This document shows, one piece after another, positions 32,830 through 55,315 of a stretch of 59,812 bases of DNA. The stretch is taken from the NCBI RefSeq assembly GCF_028707975.1, contig NZ_JAQVZX010000006.1, forward strand, positions 1 through 59,812, written 5' to 3'. Origin of the DNA: Syntrophomonas sp. GTDB taxonomy: Bacteria; Bacillota; Syntrophomonadia; Syntrophomonadales; Syntrophomonadaceae. Position 1 is the first letter of the stretch; every line of letters starts with the position of its first letter. Both the position numbers and the translations under genes were made by a program. The notes below the pieces were generated by a model. The model was not told the DNA's origin, made no database searches, and worked only from the letters and a program-made list of their open reading frames with translations.

Positions 32830-32923
32830 TGCCCAGAAGGAGATACTATTTCAATTAAATAAACTTGAGCATGAAGGGAGGATTTTCAGAGGTATTGTAG
32901 AAATAAATAGGTAATGGAAGTTT

Positions 32924-33030
32924 AAAACTCACCGAGTTTTCCGGTCTAAGGTTTTGTGGCTATGAGCGGGAAGCCGATAGGTATGAGGGGAAACGCCCAT
33001 GCCTCCCGTTTGGAAAGGAGAGTTAAAAGT
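32924..33030 (+). promoter_or_regulatory. Moco/Tuco-type riboswitch candidate upstream of tup genes
   Basis: P1 can form between AACTC (32926-32930) and GAGTT (33020-33024). Inside is a stem GCGGGA / TCCCGT (about 32966 and 33003) enclosing GGTATG / CATGCC, capped by GGGGAAACGCCC. Conserved-looking words are CACCGAG, GGAAGCCG, GCCTCCCG and GGAAAGGAG, which I recall from the Moco RNA motif. A tungstate transporter downstream fits. Identification is by eye and needs a covariance-model search. Confidence 0.65.
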
Positions 33031-33048
33031 ATGGTGGTGGAGTAAAAT

Positions 33049-46086: not shown

Positions 46087-46596
46087 ATGAAAAACGAAGA
46101 AAAAATCCTTAGTATTCTTGAGTTTATGCAGTCAGATATTAAAAGCCTTAAGGATGGCCAGGCTAATCTGGAGCAAGGCCAGGCTAATCTGGAGCAAGGC
46201 CAGGCTCTTACCAATTCTCGCCTAGATACTCTGGAGCAAGGCCAGGCTCTTACCAATTCTCGCCTAGATACTCTGGAGCAAGGCCAGGCTGTATTGCAAG
46301 AGGGCCTGGTTGCTACTAATTCGCACCTAGACACCCTGGAAAAAGGTCTGTCTGCTACTAATTCTCGCCTGGATACTCTAGAGGAAAGTGTGGCTAAATT
46401 AAGCCAGTCCCAGGCCCGGATGGAAAATCAGCTTACTGAACATATCCGGGGTTTATGGGACTTCCAGTCGGTACAAACTGATGTTAATAACCGTGTTCTG
46501 GCTGCCCTGGAACGCATTGAGAATAAGATAGAAAAACATGACATACAAATCCAGGCTTTAGATCTAACCAAGTCCAACAAGCGAAAAATTAAATAG
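46087..46596 (+). CDS. Heptad-repeat coiled-coil protein, unknown function
   Basis: 169 aa. After a 25-residue start come LEQGQAN units (7 aa) and LEQGQALTNSRLDT units (14 aa), then degenerate versions and a C-terminal helix (NRVLAALERIENKIEKHDIQ). Leucines at heptad positions predict a long coiled coil. The DNA repeats are nearly exact at 46165-46290. AGGGGG precedes the ATG. Probably a rod or tether; no enzymatic domain is visible. Confidence 0.8.
   Translation: MKNEEKILSILEFMQSDIKSLKDGQANLEQGQANLEQGQALTNSRLDTLEQGQALTNSRLDTLEQGQAVLQEGLVATNSHLDTLEKGLSATNSRLDTLEESVAKLSQSQARMENQLTEHIRGLWDFQSVQTDVNNRVLAALERIENKIEKHDIQIQALDLTKSNKRKIK
46165..46290 (+). repeat. In-frame 21-bp and 42-bp tandem repeats
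   Basis: Two identical 21-bp units (46165-46185, 46186-46206; begins AATCTGGAGCAAGGCC) are followed by two identical 42-bp units (46207-46248, 46249-46290; begins CTTACCAATTCTCGCC). Each unit is a whole number of heptads (7 or 14 codons), so copy changes preserve coiled-coil register. Confidence 0.95.
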
Positions 46597-46850: not shown

Positions 46851-47738
46851 GTGCCAGAGATATTGGACCCCAAGGTAGACTTGGCTTTCAAAAAAGTATT
46901 TGGCTCCCAGGAAAACAAAAGTATCTTGCTCAGTTTTCTTAACGCAGTGTTAAGCTGGACCGGAGAACAACAGATTGTAGATCTTAAAATCCTAAACCCT
47001 TACCTGGAACCGGAGAACATTGATGACAGTGTAGGCATACTGGATATCAAACTGCAATTAGAAAACAATGACCTGGTCGATGTAGAAATGCAGATTGGCA
47101 ACCTGGGTAACATGGAGAGACGTAGCACCTACTATGTTTGTCGCATGTTTGGAGACCAGAATATAAGCAGTGGGAGATATCAAGACCTTAACCGGGTAAT
47201 CGCCATAAATGTATTGGATTTTATCAGGATAAAACATATCAAACGCTATCACACAATATTCAGATTACGAGAAACACAAGATAACATAGACCTGACCGAT
47301 GCAATAGAGATTCATTTCATCGAGTTGCCCAAACTAAAGCTAGAAATGGCGAGTTATGCCAACCCGTTGGATAGGTGGGTGGTGTTTTTGAAAGGAGGAT
47401 GGGATGACATGGAACTGCTTGATAAATTAGCCAAACAAGACCCCGCCATCGGGAAAGCTAAACAGGTGTTGGAACAAATGGCTTCCAACCCCAGGGAAAG
47501 AGAACTCTACGAACTCAGACGAAAAGCCATATTAGACAGAAACTCAGCTCTTTATGAAGCAAAGATGGAAGGCATATCGGAAGGCAAACGGGAAGGCATA
47601 TCGGAAGGCAAACGGGAAGGCAAATTAGAAACAGCCCGTGTAGCATTGCTAAAAGGCGCTGATATAGAATTTGTTGCGGAGATTACCAATTTGCCTTTGG
47701 AAAGCATTCAGAAGTTGAAAGCCGAGATAGTGAGCTAA
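46851..47738 (+). CDS. Rpn/PDDEXK-type nuclease (putative transposase family)
   Basis: 295 aa. The N-terminus DPKVDLAFKKVFGSQENKSI, then ILDIKLQLENNDLVDVEMQI with the PD-(D/E)XK-like Asp and ExQ, and RSTYYVCRMFG are the signature of the recombination-promoting Rpn/YhgA-like family. The C-terminus ends in Glu/Lys/Gly repeats (EGISEGKREG twice, two exact 24-bp units at 47571-47618). GTG start with a distant GGAAAGGG. These proteins are often strain-specific and mobile-like. Confidence 0.85.
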   Translation: MPEILDPKVDLAFKKVFGSQENKSILLSFLNAVLSWTGEQQIVDLKILNPYLEPENIDDSVGILDIKLQLENNDLVDVEMQIGNLGNMERRSTYYVCRMFGDQNISSGRYQDLNRVIAINVLDFIRIKHIKRYHTIFRLRETQDNIDLTDAIEIHFIELPKLKLEMASYANPLDRWVVFLKGGWDDMELLDKLAKQDPAIGKAKQVLEQMASNPRERELYELRRKAILDRNSALYEAKMEGISEGKREGISEGKREGKLETARVALLKGADIEFVAEITNLPLESIQKLKAEIVS

Positions 47739-49552: not shown

Positions 49553-49590
49553 GAAAAGTTACATTATACATTAATGGAGGAATAGTATTT

Positions 49591-51450
49591 TTGAAAGACC
49601 GGCTTTTTCGCGATATTCTACCCCGAGTAGCGAAACCGGCGCGTTACACGGGCAGTGAACTCAACATGATAAAGAAAGACTGGGAACAGGCGGGAGTAAA
49701 GATGGCTTTTGCCTTTCCCGATGTCTATGAAGTGGGGATGTCCCATGTGGGGGGGAAGATACTCTATGGGCTGGTCAATGAAAAAAGCCGGCACCTTTTG
49801 GAGAGGGTTTTCGCTCCCTGGCCGGATATGGAAGCGATAATGCGGGCGGAACAGATAGCGCTTTTCTCCCTGGAGTCTTTTCATCCCGTATTGGACTTTG
49901 AGGTGCTGGGTTTTTCCTTGCAATATGAATTGTCCATTACCAATGTTTTAAATATGCTGGATTTGGCCGGAATACCCTTGTGGTCAAGAGAAAGGAATGA
50001 GGCTCATCCTCTGCTTATTGCGGGTGGACCAGTGGTTTTCAACCCGGAACCCTTTGCCGATTTTTTCGATATATTTATTATCGGTGATGGGGAAGAGGTT
50101 CTGCTGGAGTTCCTGGATGAAATGGAGGCCAGCCGGGGATTGGGGAAAGCGGAAAAACTGAAAAGGCTGGCAGCTATTGAAGGTGTCTATGCTCCGGCCC
50201 TATATAGCGTAGAATACAAAGAGGACGGGACGTTAAAGTCCTTTGAACCAAAGTTCCCGGGAGTGCCGGCCCGGGTTCGTAAAAGGGTGGTTAAAGACCT
50301 GGATCAGGCTTATTATCCTGATAAGCCTTTGGTTCCCTATATGGAGATAACCCATGACCGGGCCGTTTTAGAGGTAATGAGGGGCTGTCAGCGGGGATGC
50401 CGCTTCTGTCACGCGGGAATAGTTTACCGGCCGGTGCGGGAAAGGAGCCTGGAAATGCTGGAGAATCAGGCCCGGCGTCAACTGCAAAATACCGGCTATG
50501 AGGAGATATCCCTGGCTTCTTTGAGCAGCCTGGATTATTCGGGAATAGACCCCTTGCTAAAGAGTTTGGTGGGAAACTATGGGGAAAAGGGTATTGGGGT
50601 ATCTTTACCATCTTTGCGGGTTGATGCCTTTTCCATTGACCTGGCCAATGAAGTGCAGAAGGTCAGGAAAACTACTTTAACCCTGGCCCCGGAAGCGGGA
50701 ACCCAACGCTTAAGGGATGTAATTAATAAAAATGTCAGTGAGGAGCAGTTGCTGGAGGCCGTAGAAGCCGCCTTTAAATCCGGCTGGCTTTCGCTTAAAC
50801 TGTATTTTATGATAGGCTTGCCGGGGGAAACAGAAGAGGATCTGGAGGGAATTACAGAAATACTGCAAAAGGTCAAATACATTGGGGACAAGTATTCCCG
50901 CCGCCCGGTGGAGCTCCGGGCCAGCCTGGCTTCTTTTGTGCCCAAGGCCCATACTCCGTTCCAATGGCGGGTTCAGAACAGTATTGCGGAGCTGGAAGGC
51001 AAGCGCCAGTTTTTATCGCGCAGAAGAAAAAAGCGAATCAAGCTGAGTTTTCATGACAGCCGCACCAGCTATCTGGAAGGAACTATTGCTCGGGGAGACA
51101 GGAGACTGTCCCCGGTGATTTATCTGGCTTGGCGAAAGGGTTGCAAGTTTGATGCCTGGTCGGAGTATTTCAACTTTGACTGGTGGTGGGAGGCCTTCCA
51201 GGAAAGTGCCGTGGATCCGGAGTTCTATACCGGACGGCAGCGTCCCTACGAAGAAGAATTCCCCTGGGATTTTATTGATATTGGAGTCAGCAAAGACTTT
51301 TTGCGGGAAGAAGACCAGAAGGCTGAGGAGGGCTTGACCACAGCCGATTGCCGGCAGGAAGGCTGCAGTGACTGTGGCATTTGTCTTTCGATGGAAATAA
51401 GTTTGGATATTAAGGGTGGAAGCGCTCATGCGATTGAGAAGCAGATATAG
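49591..51450 (+). CDS. B12-binding-type radical SAM protein (TIGR03960-like)
   Basis: 619 aa. An N-terminal cobalamin-binding-like Rossmann region (FAFPDVYEVGMSHVGGKILY; PLLIAGGPVVFNPEPFADFF) precedes the radical SAM domain with Cys266, Cys270 and Cys273 in RGCQRGCRFCH. A C-terminal cluster CRQEGCSDCGIC could hold a second iron-sulfur centre. TTG 49591 follows TGGAGGAATAG. The in-frame ATG 49525 lies in repeat DNA. Substrate unknown. It overlaps its linked partner by 23 bp and sits before rng-rplU. Confidence 0.88.
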   Translation: MKDRLFRDILPRVAKPARYTGSELNMIKKDWEQAGVKMAFAFPDVYEVGMSHVGGKILYGLVNEKSRHLLERVFAPWPDMEAIMRAEQIALFSLESFHPVLDFEVLGFSLQYELSITNVLNMLDLAGIPLWSRERNEAHPLLIAGGPVVFNPEPFADFFDIFIIGDGEEVLLEFLDEMEASRGLGKAEKLKRLAAIEGVYAPALYSVEYKEDGTLKSFEPKFPGVPARVRKRVVKDLDQAYYPDKPLVPYMEITHDRAVLEVMRGCQRGCRFCHAGIVYRPVRERSLEMLENQARRQLQNTGYEEISLASLSSLDYSGIDPLLKSLVGNYGEKGIGVSLPSLRVDAFSIDLANEVQKVRKTTLTLAPEAGTQRLRDVINKNVSEEQLLEAVEAAFKSGWLSLKLYFMIGLPGETEEDLEGITEILQKVKYIGDKYSRRPVELRASLASFVPKAHTPFQWRVQNSIAELEGKRQFLSRRRKKRIKLSFHDSRTSYLEGTIARGDRRLSPVIYLAWRKGCKFDAWSEYFNFDWWWEAFQESAVDPEFYTGRQRPYEEEFPWDFIDIGVSKDFLREEDQKAEEGLTTADCRQEGCSDCGICLSMEISLDIKGGSAHAIEKQI

Positions 51451-52105
51451 TGTAGGGCCGGAATTAAAGTTTCTGGGCAATCTGGATATGATGCACCTGA
51501 TGGAAAGAAGCCTGCGGCGAGCCGCTATTCCTTACGCCCTCAGCGAGGGCTTTAATCCCCACATCAAGTTGTCTATGGGTACGGTACTGCCAGTAGGCTT
51601 GTGGGGGGAGAACGAATATTTTGACCTGGAACTAGCTCAGACGATGGATTTGCTAGATTTCAGGCAAAAACTCTCCGCGGTTTTGCCCTCCTATCTGCAA
51701 TTAAAGGAATGCCAGGAGATAGCAGATACCGCTCCCTCTCTGATGAAAATCATAAATGCCGCTTCTTATGTATATTTGCTCGAACCTCCTTTCCCCTCTT
51801 TGGACAAATGGAAAGAGGAACTACTGGCCCGGTCATCTTTAACGGTCAGAAGCCGGGGCAAAAAAAAAGGCCTTGACAAAGAACTGCGTACTGGTATTTA
51901 TAGAATAGAGGTTGATGAAAGTTTGAATATTGGGCGGGTAGAAATATGGGTGGCAGTTGGCGAACCGGTAAATGTGCGTTATGACGAACTCGGTGAGTTG
52001 TTGCTGCAGACTGGCTTTACGCAAAACAGTATAGCCGAGGTTTTCCGCAGTGGGAATTATATTCGGGAGGGTTCTGGGTACCTTTCACCGCTGGAAGTGC
52101 TATGA
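51428..52105 (+). CDS. Radical SAM-linked protein (TIGR03936/DUF2344-like)
   Basis: 225 aa. The core LRSRYSVGPELKFLGNLDMM, SLRRAAIPYALSEGFNPHIK and SMGTVLPVGLWGENEYFDLE is the DUF2344 signature. In other genomes this domain is fused to the C-terminus of the radical SAM protein. Here it is a separate gene in another frame, with ATG 51428 inside the end of the upstream gene. The pair probably forms one complex. The function is uncharacterised as far as I know. Confidence 0.88.
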   Translation: MRLRSRYSVGPELKFLGNLDMMHLMERSLRRAAIPYALSEGFNPHIKLSMGTVLPVGLWGENEYFDLELAQTMDLLDFRQKLSAVLPSYLQLKECQEIADTAPSLMKIINAASYVYLLEPPFPSLDKWKEELLARSSLTVRSRGKKKGLDKELRTGIYRIEVDESLNIGRVEIWVAVGEPVNVRYDELGELLLQTGFTQNSIAEVFRSGNYIREGSGYLSPLEVL

Positions 52106-52221: not shown

Positions 52222-53652
52222 TTGATTAAAGAAATAATTGCCGAAGTGTATCCCTGGGAATCAAGGGTGGCGATAGTGGAGGATGGCCGCCTGGCTGAGG
52301 TTTTTTGGGCTGACCAGGGGGAGAATGTAGGCAAGATATACAAGGGTAAAATTAAAGATATATTACCGGGTCTGTCCTGTGTTTTTATTGACATCGGATT
52401 GGCGAGGAACGCTTTTTTATACGCCGGCGATGTTGTCAGGGTAGGGAAAAAGAAAGGGCTTAATGTATATGAACTCTTAAAAAGCGGACAGGATATTATG
52501 GTACAAGTGAAAAAGGAAGCTTTTTCGGAAAAAGGAGCTCGGGTAACAGGAGATCTCAGTATCCCCGGGCGCTTGCTGGTTCTTCTACCTTTTCAGAATG
52601 AGGTATCCATTTCGCGTAAAATCACCGGAGATGAGCGGAGGCAGCACCTGCGTTCCTTGCTGGAGCAAAACAAGCCGGAAAATGGTGGCATCATTGTGAG
52701 AACTGCGTGTCTGGAAGCTGAAGATCAGGAGATAATCCAGGAATTAAACAGGTTGCTCAAGGCCTGGGAGGAAGTAAAACAGCGCTATCAAAACCGAAAA
52801 GCTCCCAGTCTCATATATGAAGATATGGATGTTTTGGAAAGGACCATGCGGGATTATCTGGATGGAAATTTGAGCCGGATAGTAATAAACCATCGGAGGC
52901 TTAAGGACAAGATTCTGGACTATATCAGCGGTAAGAAGGTTTTTGATCGGGTGACGATTGATTATGAAGAGGGAGCTCTTTTTGAAAGGTACAACTTGGA
53001 GAAGGATATTAAAAGATCGCTGCGCCGGAAAATATGGTTGAAAAATGGAGGCTACCTGATTTTTGACCGTACCGAAGCCATGACCGTTATAGATGTTAAC
53101 AGTGGCAAATTTACCGGCAAAGATAATTTTGAAGAAACGGTTTTCAAGATAAATATGGAAGCGGCCATAGAAATACCACGGCAGCTCAGGTTGCGCAGCC
53201 TGGGGGGGATAATTCTCATTGACTTTATAGATATGAAAGAGAAGTCGCACCGGGATGAGTTGATAAAGGTTTTAAAGACGGAACTGGAAAAGGACAAGGC
53301 CCATACTCGTATTATCGGTATAACTGGTCTGGGCTTCCTGGAAATGACCCGAAAGAAATCGCGATACGGGGTAGTGGAGTTTTTCACCGATGAGTGTCCC
53401 AGTTGTAGTGGCCGGGGTCATACCATTAACCTGCAGGCCCTGGCCAGTGAAGCCAAGAGGAAAATGGCTCATATGGGATACCTGGAGAATAGCCAGATAG
53501 TATGTCAAGCAGAACCGCGTCTATTAAAGATATTAAAAGATGACGAAAAAGATATAGGATACATTGAAAGGCGGAGCGGCAAGAGAGTAAAATTATTATG
53601 TGATCCCGATTTAGCCCTGGGAGAATACAAGATATACTCCGGCAGCGAATAG
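52222..53652 (+). CDS. rng: Ribonuclease E/G family endoribonuclease
   Basis: 476 aa. An S1-like RNA-binding segment (VGKIYKGKIKDILPGLSCVF IDIG, about 35-57), then the catalytic core with Asp residues in MTVIDVNSGKFTG and GGIILIDFIDMKEK. The zinc-link CPSCSGRGH is near the C-terminus. It processes rRNA or mRNA at 5'-monophosphate ends. The start is TTG 52222 after AAGGTGAG. It lacks the long scaffold tail of RNase E, so RNase G type. Upstream of rplU as in other Clostridia. Confidence 0.93.
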   Translation: MIKEIIAEVYPWESRVAIVEDGRLAEVFWADQGENVGKIYKGKIKDILPGLSCVFIDIGLARNAFLYAGDVVRVGKKKGLNVYELLKSGQDIMVQVKKEAFSEKGARVTGDLSIPGRLLVLLPFQNEVSISRKITGDERRQHLRSLLEQNKPENGGIIVRTACLEAEDQEIIQELNRLLKAWEEVKQRYQNRKAPSLIYEDMDVLERTMRDYLDGNLSRIVINHRRLKDKILDYISGKKVFDRVTIDYEEGALFERYNLEKDIKRSLRRKIWLKNGGYLIFDRTEAMTVIDVNSGKFTGKDNFEETVFKINMEAAIEIPRQLRLRSLGGIILIDFIDMKEKSHRDELIKVLKTELEKDKAHTRIIGITGLGFLEMTRKKSRYGVVEFFTDECPSCSGRGHTINLQALASEAKRKMAHMGYLENSQIVCQAEPRLLKILKDDEKDIGYIERRSGKRVKLLCDPDLALGEYKIYSGSE

Positions 53653-53795
53653 CAGCAATATCTTGACTAGCTCTGTTATTTATGTTAAGTTTTTATCTGG
53701 GTTTCATGTTTTTGTAACCGCACAGTTCGGGTTTTTAAATGGCCTTATAGCTTACCTGCAATTGGCGAGTCTGAGAAATATGGGGGTGTATTGAA

Positions 53796-54110
53796 GTGTA
53801 TGCAATTATTGAAAGTGGTGGGAAACAGTATAAAGCATATGAAGGAAGCATAATAAAAGTTGAAAGACTGGATGTTGAGGCCGGTGAAAAACTTACTCTG
53901 GATCAAGTTCTTTTTTTCAATGACGGGAATGGCAATGTAAAGATTGGGAATCCACTGGTGGCTGGCGTACGGGTGATTGCTGAGGTATTGGAACAGGGAA
54001 AACACAAAAAAATTACGGTTTTCAAGTATAAACGCAGAAAGAACTATCGCAAGAAACAGGGACATCGCCAACCGTATACCAAGATTAAAGTGGAAAAAAT
54101 AGAGGCTTAA
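53796..54110 (+). CDS. rplU: 50S ribosomal protein L21
   Basis: 104 aa, the usual size. It has [20 protein letters not shown] at the start and the signature [19 protein letters not shown] near the end, which binds 23S rRNA. GTG start. The 143-bp leader 53653-53795 may carry an L21 leader RNA, but I could not recognise its structure. The stop overlaps the prp start by 1 base. Confidence 0.97.
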
Positions 54111-54439
54111 TGCTTGCGCTAACTATTAATTACAAGAATAATAAAATTATATCATTCAAAATAGAGGGACATGCGGGTTTTGCCCCTGAAGGTGAGGATA
54201 TATACTGTGCCGGTGTGTCAGCGGTAGCCCAGACCGCCTTGATTGGTCTAATTAAACAGCTGACAGTTGAGCCCAAGTATCGGATGGAAAAAGGTTTCCT
54301 GGAATGTGAACTTCCTCCCTCTTTGAATGAAGAAGAGTTGGAAAAGGCCCAGATAATTCTATCTACCATGGAAGCAGGATTGCTTTCCATGCAAGCAGCA
54401 TATCCCAGTAGAATTAAAGTTAATATCAGGAGGTGTTAA
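54110..54439 (+). CDS. prp: Ribosomal-processing cysteine protease Prp
   Basis: 109 aa (YsxB family). Catalytic His21 and Cys33 are in [20 protein letters not shown]. In Staphylococcus, Prp removes the N-terminal extension of L27. The L27 encoded next has exactly such an extension, so the pair is functionally consistent. Between rplU and rpmA, as throughout Firmicutes. Confidence 0.95.
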
Positions 54440-54441
54440 GA

Positions 54442-54735
54442 ATGTTCTTTTTTGATTTGCAGTTATTTGCCCACAAAAAAGGGGTTGGCAGTTCCAAAAA
54501 CGGTAGAGACAGCCAGTCCAAGAGGCTGGGAGTTAAAAGGTATGACGGTCAGATAGTTACCGCCGGTAACATTCTGGTTCGCCAGAGAGGCACCAGGATT
54601 CATCCCGGACAGAATGTAATGATTGGCGGAGATGATACCCTTTTCGCGGTAATTGATGGTAAAGTAAAATATGAGAGAAAAGGTCGGGACAAAAAGCAGG
54701 TCAGTGTATACCCGCTGGAAACCATGACCATGTAA
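54442..54735 (+). CDS. rpmA: 50S ribosomal protein L27 with cleavable N-terminus
   Basis: 97 aa. It begins MFFFDLQLF then [20 protein letters not shown]. The first nine residues match the Firmicute extension cut by Prp between Phe9 and Ala10, exposing the tail that reaches the peptidyl-transferase centre. ATG 54442 follows AGGAGGTG. A frame opening at 54433 is less well placed. Confidence 0.97.
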
Positions 54736-54862: not shown

Positions 54863-55315
54863 TTGGAAGCCAAACATAGCATGGAGATATTAAGAAGGGT
54901 CAGGCATGATTTTGCCAACCACCTGCAGGTTATAAGCGGATACCTGGAACTGGGAAGATATCAGCAGGTAAAAGAATATATTGCTGAAATAGTGAAGGAT
55001 ATGGCTGAAGAGAAAAAAATATTTGAGGCGGGCCTCTCCGCTAAAGAAGCACTATATTTTTTTGAAAAAACATTAACAGCTCGTGAGCTGGGGATAATAT
55101 TAAGGTTCGAGGAATTGGAAGTCAACTCGCTGGACCTATCCCGGCTTAACCATGAACTGGATAAAGCGTTGCATGAATTGTCCAGTCAGCTAAAGGGAAG
55201 GGAAGAGGAACCAGTGGTTTATCTTTTCTTATATAATAATGGAGAAGAAATAACGATGCTTTTTTCCTGTCCTTTGCTAGCGCAAAGCCCGGTAAAGATT
55301 AGCATCAAGGAGTGA
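54863..55315 (+). CDS. spo0B: Spo0B-like sporulation phosphotransferase
   Basis: 150 aa. The N-terminal four-helix-bundle half carries His15 in RRVRHDFANHLQVISGYLEL, the phospho-accepting histidine context of Spo0B-type domains. The C-terminal half is a degenerate ATPase-like fold. It would relay phosphate in the Spo0A phosphorelay. TTG start after AAGGGGAG. It ends 4 bp before obg, as in Bacillus. Confidence 0.85.
   Translation: MEAKHSMEILRRVRHDFANHLQVISGYLELGRYQQVKEYIAEIVKDMAEEKKIFEAGLSAKEALYFFEKTLTARELGIILRFEELEVNSLDLSRLNHELDKALHELSSQLKGREEEPVVYLFLYNNGEEITMLFSCPLLAQSPVKISIKE

Follow-up and report, generated by a model that had tools for sequence, protein, structure and literature searches.

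The radical-SAM protein analyzed here, a member of the TIGR03960 family, has MgmA, the archaeal methyl-coenzyme M reductase glutamine C-methyltransferase (TIGR04014; PDB 9ccb), as its closest solved relative by both sequence and fold, and its layout resembles that of this B12-dependent radical-SAM enzyme. Unlike the gene pair that we describe, MgmA has a protein substrate, and the TIGR03960 protein scores 55.5 on TIGR04014 versus a cut-off of 360; we know of no TruA-like partner for MgmA. TsrM and OxsB, two further cobalamin-dependent radical-SAM enzymes, combine an N-terminal cobalamin domain with a radical-SAM core, an architecture that the TIGR03960 protein resembles by fold; they act on small-molecule substrates and have no RNA-binding subunit. 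As MgmA acts on protein and TsrM on tryptophan, the nearest enzymes of the TIGR03960 protein are not RNA enzymes, and no class B radical-SAM enzyme with an RNA substrate is known to us. The methylthiotransferases MiaB, RimO, and MtaB have a related radical-SAM core, and MiaB acts on tRNA A37. RNA carbons are methylated by the class A radical-SAM enzymes RlmN and Cfr, and class B radical-SAM methylases carry a cobalamin domain (PMC9692996). RlmN and Cfr differ from the predicted make-up of the pair in being class A enzymes with a single radical-SAM domain, no cobalamin domain, and no separate RNA-docking subunit. For the second protein of the pair, of the DUF2344 family, the described relatives are TruA, Pus1, Pus3, and Pus10, which have the same fold and full-length profile homology to it. 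For the TIGR03960/TIGR03936 family itself we found no function or biochemical result in the literature searched, in agreement with the initial annotation, which knew of no established reaction.

In the window, which is the entire 59,812-nucleotide stretch of Syntrophomonas DNA that we analyzed, the pair consists of two overlapping genes between an M50 peptidase gene (spoIVFB) and rng-rplU-prp-rpmA; the pair with its features and the downstream genes through rpmA are on the forward strand. The first gene (49591..51450) encodes a 619-aa TIGR03960-family radical-SAM protein (NCBIfam, 820.8 bits versus a cut-off of 462.3) from a TTG start that follows a Shine-Dalgarno-like GGAGG (49576..49580) by 10 nt. 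The second (51428..52105) encodes a 225-aa DUF2344/TIGR03936 protein (174.9 bits versus 71.9) from an ATG start, 8 nt after a Shine-Dalgarno-like GGGTGG (51414..51419) that lies within the end of the radical-SAM gene. Pfam domains in the two ORFs were Radical_SAM_N2, Radical_SAM, and DUF2344. The genes overlap by 23 bp in different frames (51428..51450), and translational coupling of DUF2344 to the radical-SAM gene is likely from this arrangement. Both the pair at 49591-52105 with its out-of-frame overlap and its location between these neighbors had been read from the DNA alone, and both held up against family scores and the assignment of the neighbors by NCBIfam, Pfam, and gene order. Downstream, the Rne/Rng-family ribonuclease gene rng (52222..53652; NCBIfam), a conserved neighbor, is followed by an L21 leader RNA (53706..53782; Rfam RF00559, 49.7 bits) and by rplU, prp, and rpmA (53796..54735; NCBIfam and Pfam for rplU and prp, order and ORF for rpmA). 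The leader before rplU implies that rplU control is separate from the TIGR03960/DUF2344 pair. We also observed, at 54863-55315 between rpmA and obg, a Spo0B-type (SPOB_a) sensor-kinase-like ORF that is conserved in relatives. The closest named relative is S. wolfei subsp. methylbutyratica, with a 92% identical DUF2344 protein, and a contig scan with one close query returned Syntrophomonadaceae-type relatives only.

The radical-SAM protein has an N-terminal, cobalamin-domain-like Radical_SAM_N2 module (49750..50196; PF19864, E = 4.9e-59) containing a GGP...NPEP...GEGEE-type motif. A PF04055 match (E = 9.3e-24) and a CxxxCxxC motif for the radical-SAM [4Fe-4S] cluster (C266/C270/C273; 50386..50409), invariant across 91 sequences, place it in the radical SAM superfamily. 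The extra C-terminal Cys cluster noticed in the initial annotation, CRQEGCSDCGIC at residues 587-598 (C587-X4-C592-X2-C595-X2-C598; 51349..51384), is conserved: C587, C592, and C595 are invariant in 91/91 sequences and the full CX4CX2CX2C occurs in 70/91. The cluster may bind an auxiliary iron-sulfur or metal center.

MgmA is the nearest solved protein by sequence (9ccb, E = 2.5e-9), and with a naturally fused homologue as the query, a fold search ranked MgmA (E = 4.7e-14), TsrM, and OxsB first, followed by MiaB/RimO. The B12-binding match in Pfam was weak (PF02310, E = 0.026, 14.8 bits versus a cut-off of 32.1), so the earlier label "cobalamin-type" stands as a resemblance of fold, and a search for a cobalamin riboswitch upstream of the pair found none. 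Furthermore, a Rossmann module like that of TIGR03960 also occurs in methylthiotransferases and AprD4, both of which are among the fold matches. These three points count against our main reading. An enzyme that acts on RNA by methylthiotransferase-like or dehydratase-like radical-SAM chemistry, with the C-terminal Cys cluster in an auxiliary role and without cobalamin, would fit the TIGR00089 (MiaB/RimO) match to the radical-SAM protein (NCBIfam, E = 4.7e-11), the MiaB-RNA, RimO, and AprD4 structures among the fold matches, and the B12-binding score under its cut-off. However, the conserved N-domain three-Cys motif of MiaB, RimO, and MtaB was not found (10/91 sequences are without any Cys there), no TRAM domain was detected by Pfam, all scores fell far below the methylthiotransferase family cut-offs, and cobalamin enzymes were the best fold matches. 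We therefore rejected methylthiotransferase membership and consider cobalamin-free chemistry unlikely, and we regard cobalamin use by the TIGR03960 subunit as probable.

The first hint of the kinship of DUF2344 came from a search of genomes without the pair, in which the only four matches were weak and were all TruA. Comparison of profiles built from 106 DUF2344 and 34 TruA sequences aligned the two families over 208 columns (hhalign probability 94%, P = 1.4e-7), whereas controls gave P = 0.31 for a reversed profile, 0.018 for the best of 30 column shuffles, and 0.08 or worse for five unrelated families. The AlphaFold2 model of DUF2344 was confident (pLDDT 96.9, pTM 0.91), and a Foldseek search of the PDB with it returned TruA as the best match (8q70, E = 1.7e-9), with Pus3, Pus1, and Pus10 also leading. 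Each of the top 31 PDB fold matches was either a TruA/Pus1/Pus3/Pus10/Cbf5-type protein or a mitoribosomal assembly protein with a similar fold. Pseudouridine synthases led this search throughout, and we rejected a Cas6/RAMP-like reading of DUF2344 on that ground. As judged by profile and model, DUF2344 thus has the TruA-type pseudouridine-synthase fold. DUF2344 had already been grouped with PseudoU_synth_1 in a 2021 Pfam-clan study (PMC7955657), so that the fold link in itself is not new; we did not find a conclusion for this enzyme drawn from it in the literature searched.

In contrast to TruA, DUF2344 has lost the catalytic motifs of the fold. The TruA catalytic loop GRTDAGVHAxGQV aligns to LxvGxxsxxEyxd in DUF2344 (residues 47-69; 51566..51634), in which the RTD motif with its Asp is absent and E63 is near-invariant. 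The FLYNMVR segment of TruA, the motif-III helix, has no counterpart in the profile alignment, and the protein did not match PF01416 (TruA) in Pfam. Conserved residues in DUF2344 are R4, L19, R27, R31, GFNP (41-44), G57, E63, Y114, and R207, with the near-invariant Y114 aligning near the conserved K.Y.Y segment of TruA. The loss of both the Asp motif and the motif-III helix makes DUF2344 look like a catalytically dead subunit with a predicted role in RNA docking. DUF2344 also differs from TruA in that it adjoins or is fused to a radical-SAM protein. A point against the docking role is that the TruA-like fold could have been put to a use unrelated to RNA binding. In a separate observation, one 88%-complete assembly (G000) gave no TruA (PF01416) match; TruA is present in two genomes of the same genus, and the missing TruA is probably an assembly gap.

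The distribution of the two genes was analyzed across 299 genomes of this phylum. DUF2344 gave 273 matches, or 269 once the four weak TruA matches were subtracted, and TIGR03960 matched strongly in these 269 genomes and in no others. The pair is therefore present together in 269/299 genomes (about 90%) and absent together from 30/299, one of which (G069) contains a partial TIGR03960 match. Where the genes are split, 74/97 loci overlap and 94/97 lie within 30 bp of each other. Fused proteins, counted as open frames of at least 850 aa, occurred in 45/61 sampled genomes of one order; fusion within the phylum is essentially limited to that order and the genes are split elsewhere, which narrows the earlier statement that the two are fused in many bacteria. 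A model of one natural fusion was confident over 875 residues (L063; pLDDT 91.5, pTM 0.89) and suggests a defined interface and a fixed placement of the radical-SAM and DUF2344 modules. Together, perfect co-occurrence, coupled overlaps, fusions, and the confident joint model support a physical partnership of both proteins as a two-subunit enzyme, as far as sequence and modeling can indicate. Apparent triple fusions in two genomes (open frames of 1146-1151 aa) were rejected because the N-terminal extra was not protein-like and the next start yielded a normal fusion. In one genome (L247:8940-11363; G268), a TIGR03960 frame has an N-terminal extension of ~180 aa, which matches the DVU_1551 NTP-transferase family over the C-terminal part of that family.

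The survey outside the phylum covered 14 control genomes and plasmid records. Among the control genomes, the pair exceeded the cut-offs only in Thermotoga maritima and Synechococcus; Escherichia coli and Bacillus subtilis are without the pair, and the archaeal control genomes are without DUF2344. The pair was also found in two actinomycetes, one of which, Nonomuraea, has the order pair-rne-rplU-rpmA-obg-proB, indicating that the cluster is old.

The initial annotation had suggested a survey of phylogenetic co-occurrence with rng. We observed rng in 117/129 examined pair loci, and this frequency, with the rne-rplU-rpmA-obg order in an actinomycete, would suit a pair that acts on or with RNase G, either in RNA turnover or in the rRNA maturation that depends on this enzyme. 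Yet 20/30 pair-less genomes keep RNase E/G, and in Collinsella the pair is present with no rng between it and rplU. These findings identify rng as a conserved neighbor, reject RNase G as an obligate partner, and make a role of the pair in RNase G function very unlikely. In other genomes, the pair lies beside obg, RNase J, or miaB-mutS-mutL-miaA. The last of these is the sole tRNA-A37 context that we saw (L243:6824-8985; G289), with the pair directly upstream of miaB. Taken as a whole, the neighborhood indicates a broad link of the pair to RNA and translation.

Family membership, pairing, the TruA fold, and loss of the Asp motif are established by computation, and on this basis we give an even chance to the reading that the pair is a two-part RNA-modifying enzyme, composed of a radical-SAM subunit that is probably cobalamin-dependent and a TruA-fold docking subunit. 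In such an enzyme, DUF2344 would have lost the pseudouridine-synthase active site, kept the RNA-binding platform, and would dock the substrate RNA. The CxxxCxxC-bound [4Fe-4S] cluster of the TIGR03960 subunit would cleave SAM, the N-terminal Rossmann-type module would most likely hold cobalamin, the C-terminal Cys cluster would probably hold an auxiliary metal center, and an unreactive carbon on the partner-held RNA would probably be methylated by class B radical-SAM chemistry. If the N-terminal module holds cobalamin, C-methylation of RNA becomes probable; taken by itself, C-methylation as the reaction of the pair is a balanced call.

We consider RNA quite probable as the substrate. The setting had earlier suggested modification of rRNA, tRNA, or a ribosomal protein; the RNA part of that suggestion is now supported by the TruA fold of DUF2344, and the tie to the neighboring RNase and ribosomal genes has weakened with the retention of RNase E/G in pair-less genomes and the other gene contexts. 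TruA and Pus enzymes act mainly on tRNA, and this, with the one miaB locus, somewhat favors tRNA over rRNA; tRNA is a plausible if tentative assignment, and rRNA is rather doubtful. Against our main reading, the conserved neighbors are ribosomal and RNase genes and not tRNA genes, save at the one miaB/miaA locus; the non-RNA substrates of MgmA and TsrM also count against it. The same neighbors, among whose products are L21, L27, and Prp (the protease of L27), would suit a pair that has a ribosomal protein or a translation factor as its substrate, with the TruA-like subunit only anchoring it to ribosomal RNA, as would the protein-modifying MgmA (a protein glutamine methylase) and RimO among the nearest solved relatives. 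Because the fold of DUF2344 is that of base-modifying RNA enzymes, and the pair, often beside rng, also occurs away from ribosomal-protein genes, we consider a protein substrate improbable.

Returning to an RNA-modifying pair, we tentatively propose it as the first RNA-acting member of the cobalamin-dependent radical-SAM enzymes. A dead pseudouridine synthase would be its docking subunit, and its product would be a tRNA or rRNA modification common to Clostridia and to members of Cyanobacteria, Actinomycetota, and Thermotogota. If so, the guidance of a B12-type radical enzyme by a dead pseudouridine synthase would represent a new design of RNA-modifying enzyme, and if the pair modifies RNA, the carrier groups would share a conserved nucleoside that work in E. 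coli and B. subtilis never revealed. The pair is in this respect a candidate for orphan nucleosides of T. maritima, which, with Synechococcus, was the sole carrier among the control genomes. The pair could make N-330 at C1404 of 16S rRNA, or it could supply the additional carbon in hn6A at tRNA A37; hn6A and t6A are one carbon apart, and TruA (tRNA pseudouridine-38-40 synthase) acts next to position 37. N-330, of 330.117 Da, is described from T. maritima and "many Bacteria" with structure and enzyme unknown (PMC2584109), and by arithmetic its formula is C12H18N4O7, or cytidine plus C3H5NO2. T. maritima was also the first organism in which hn6A was detected, and the biosynthesis of hn6A is likewise described as unknown (PMC6313347). 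However, archaea make both nucleosides, N-330 in Haloferax (PMC2584109) and hn6A in methanogens, M. acetivorans and M. jannaschii among them (PMC10702137), and the lack of DUF2344 in the archaeal controls means that neither fits well. In addition, hn6A is regarded as exceptional in Bacteria, in contrast to the widespread pair, and the t6A pathway is the probable route for loading its hydroxynorvaline (PMC10702137). Synthesis of either nucleoside by the pair is thus a long shot.

Other features were observed elsewhere in the window. An ORF at 46851-47738 resembles a transposase/nuclease-family protein, and just upstream of it an ORF at 46087-46596 contains repeated LEQGQA-type units. A molybdenum/tungsten (Moco) riboswitch (32918-33036; 70.5 bits) lies upstream of tungstate/molybdate-like ABC transporter ORFs.
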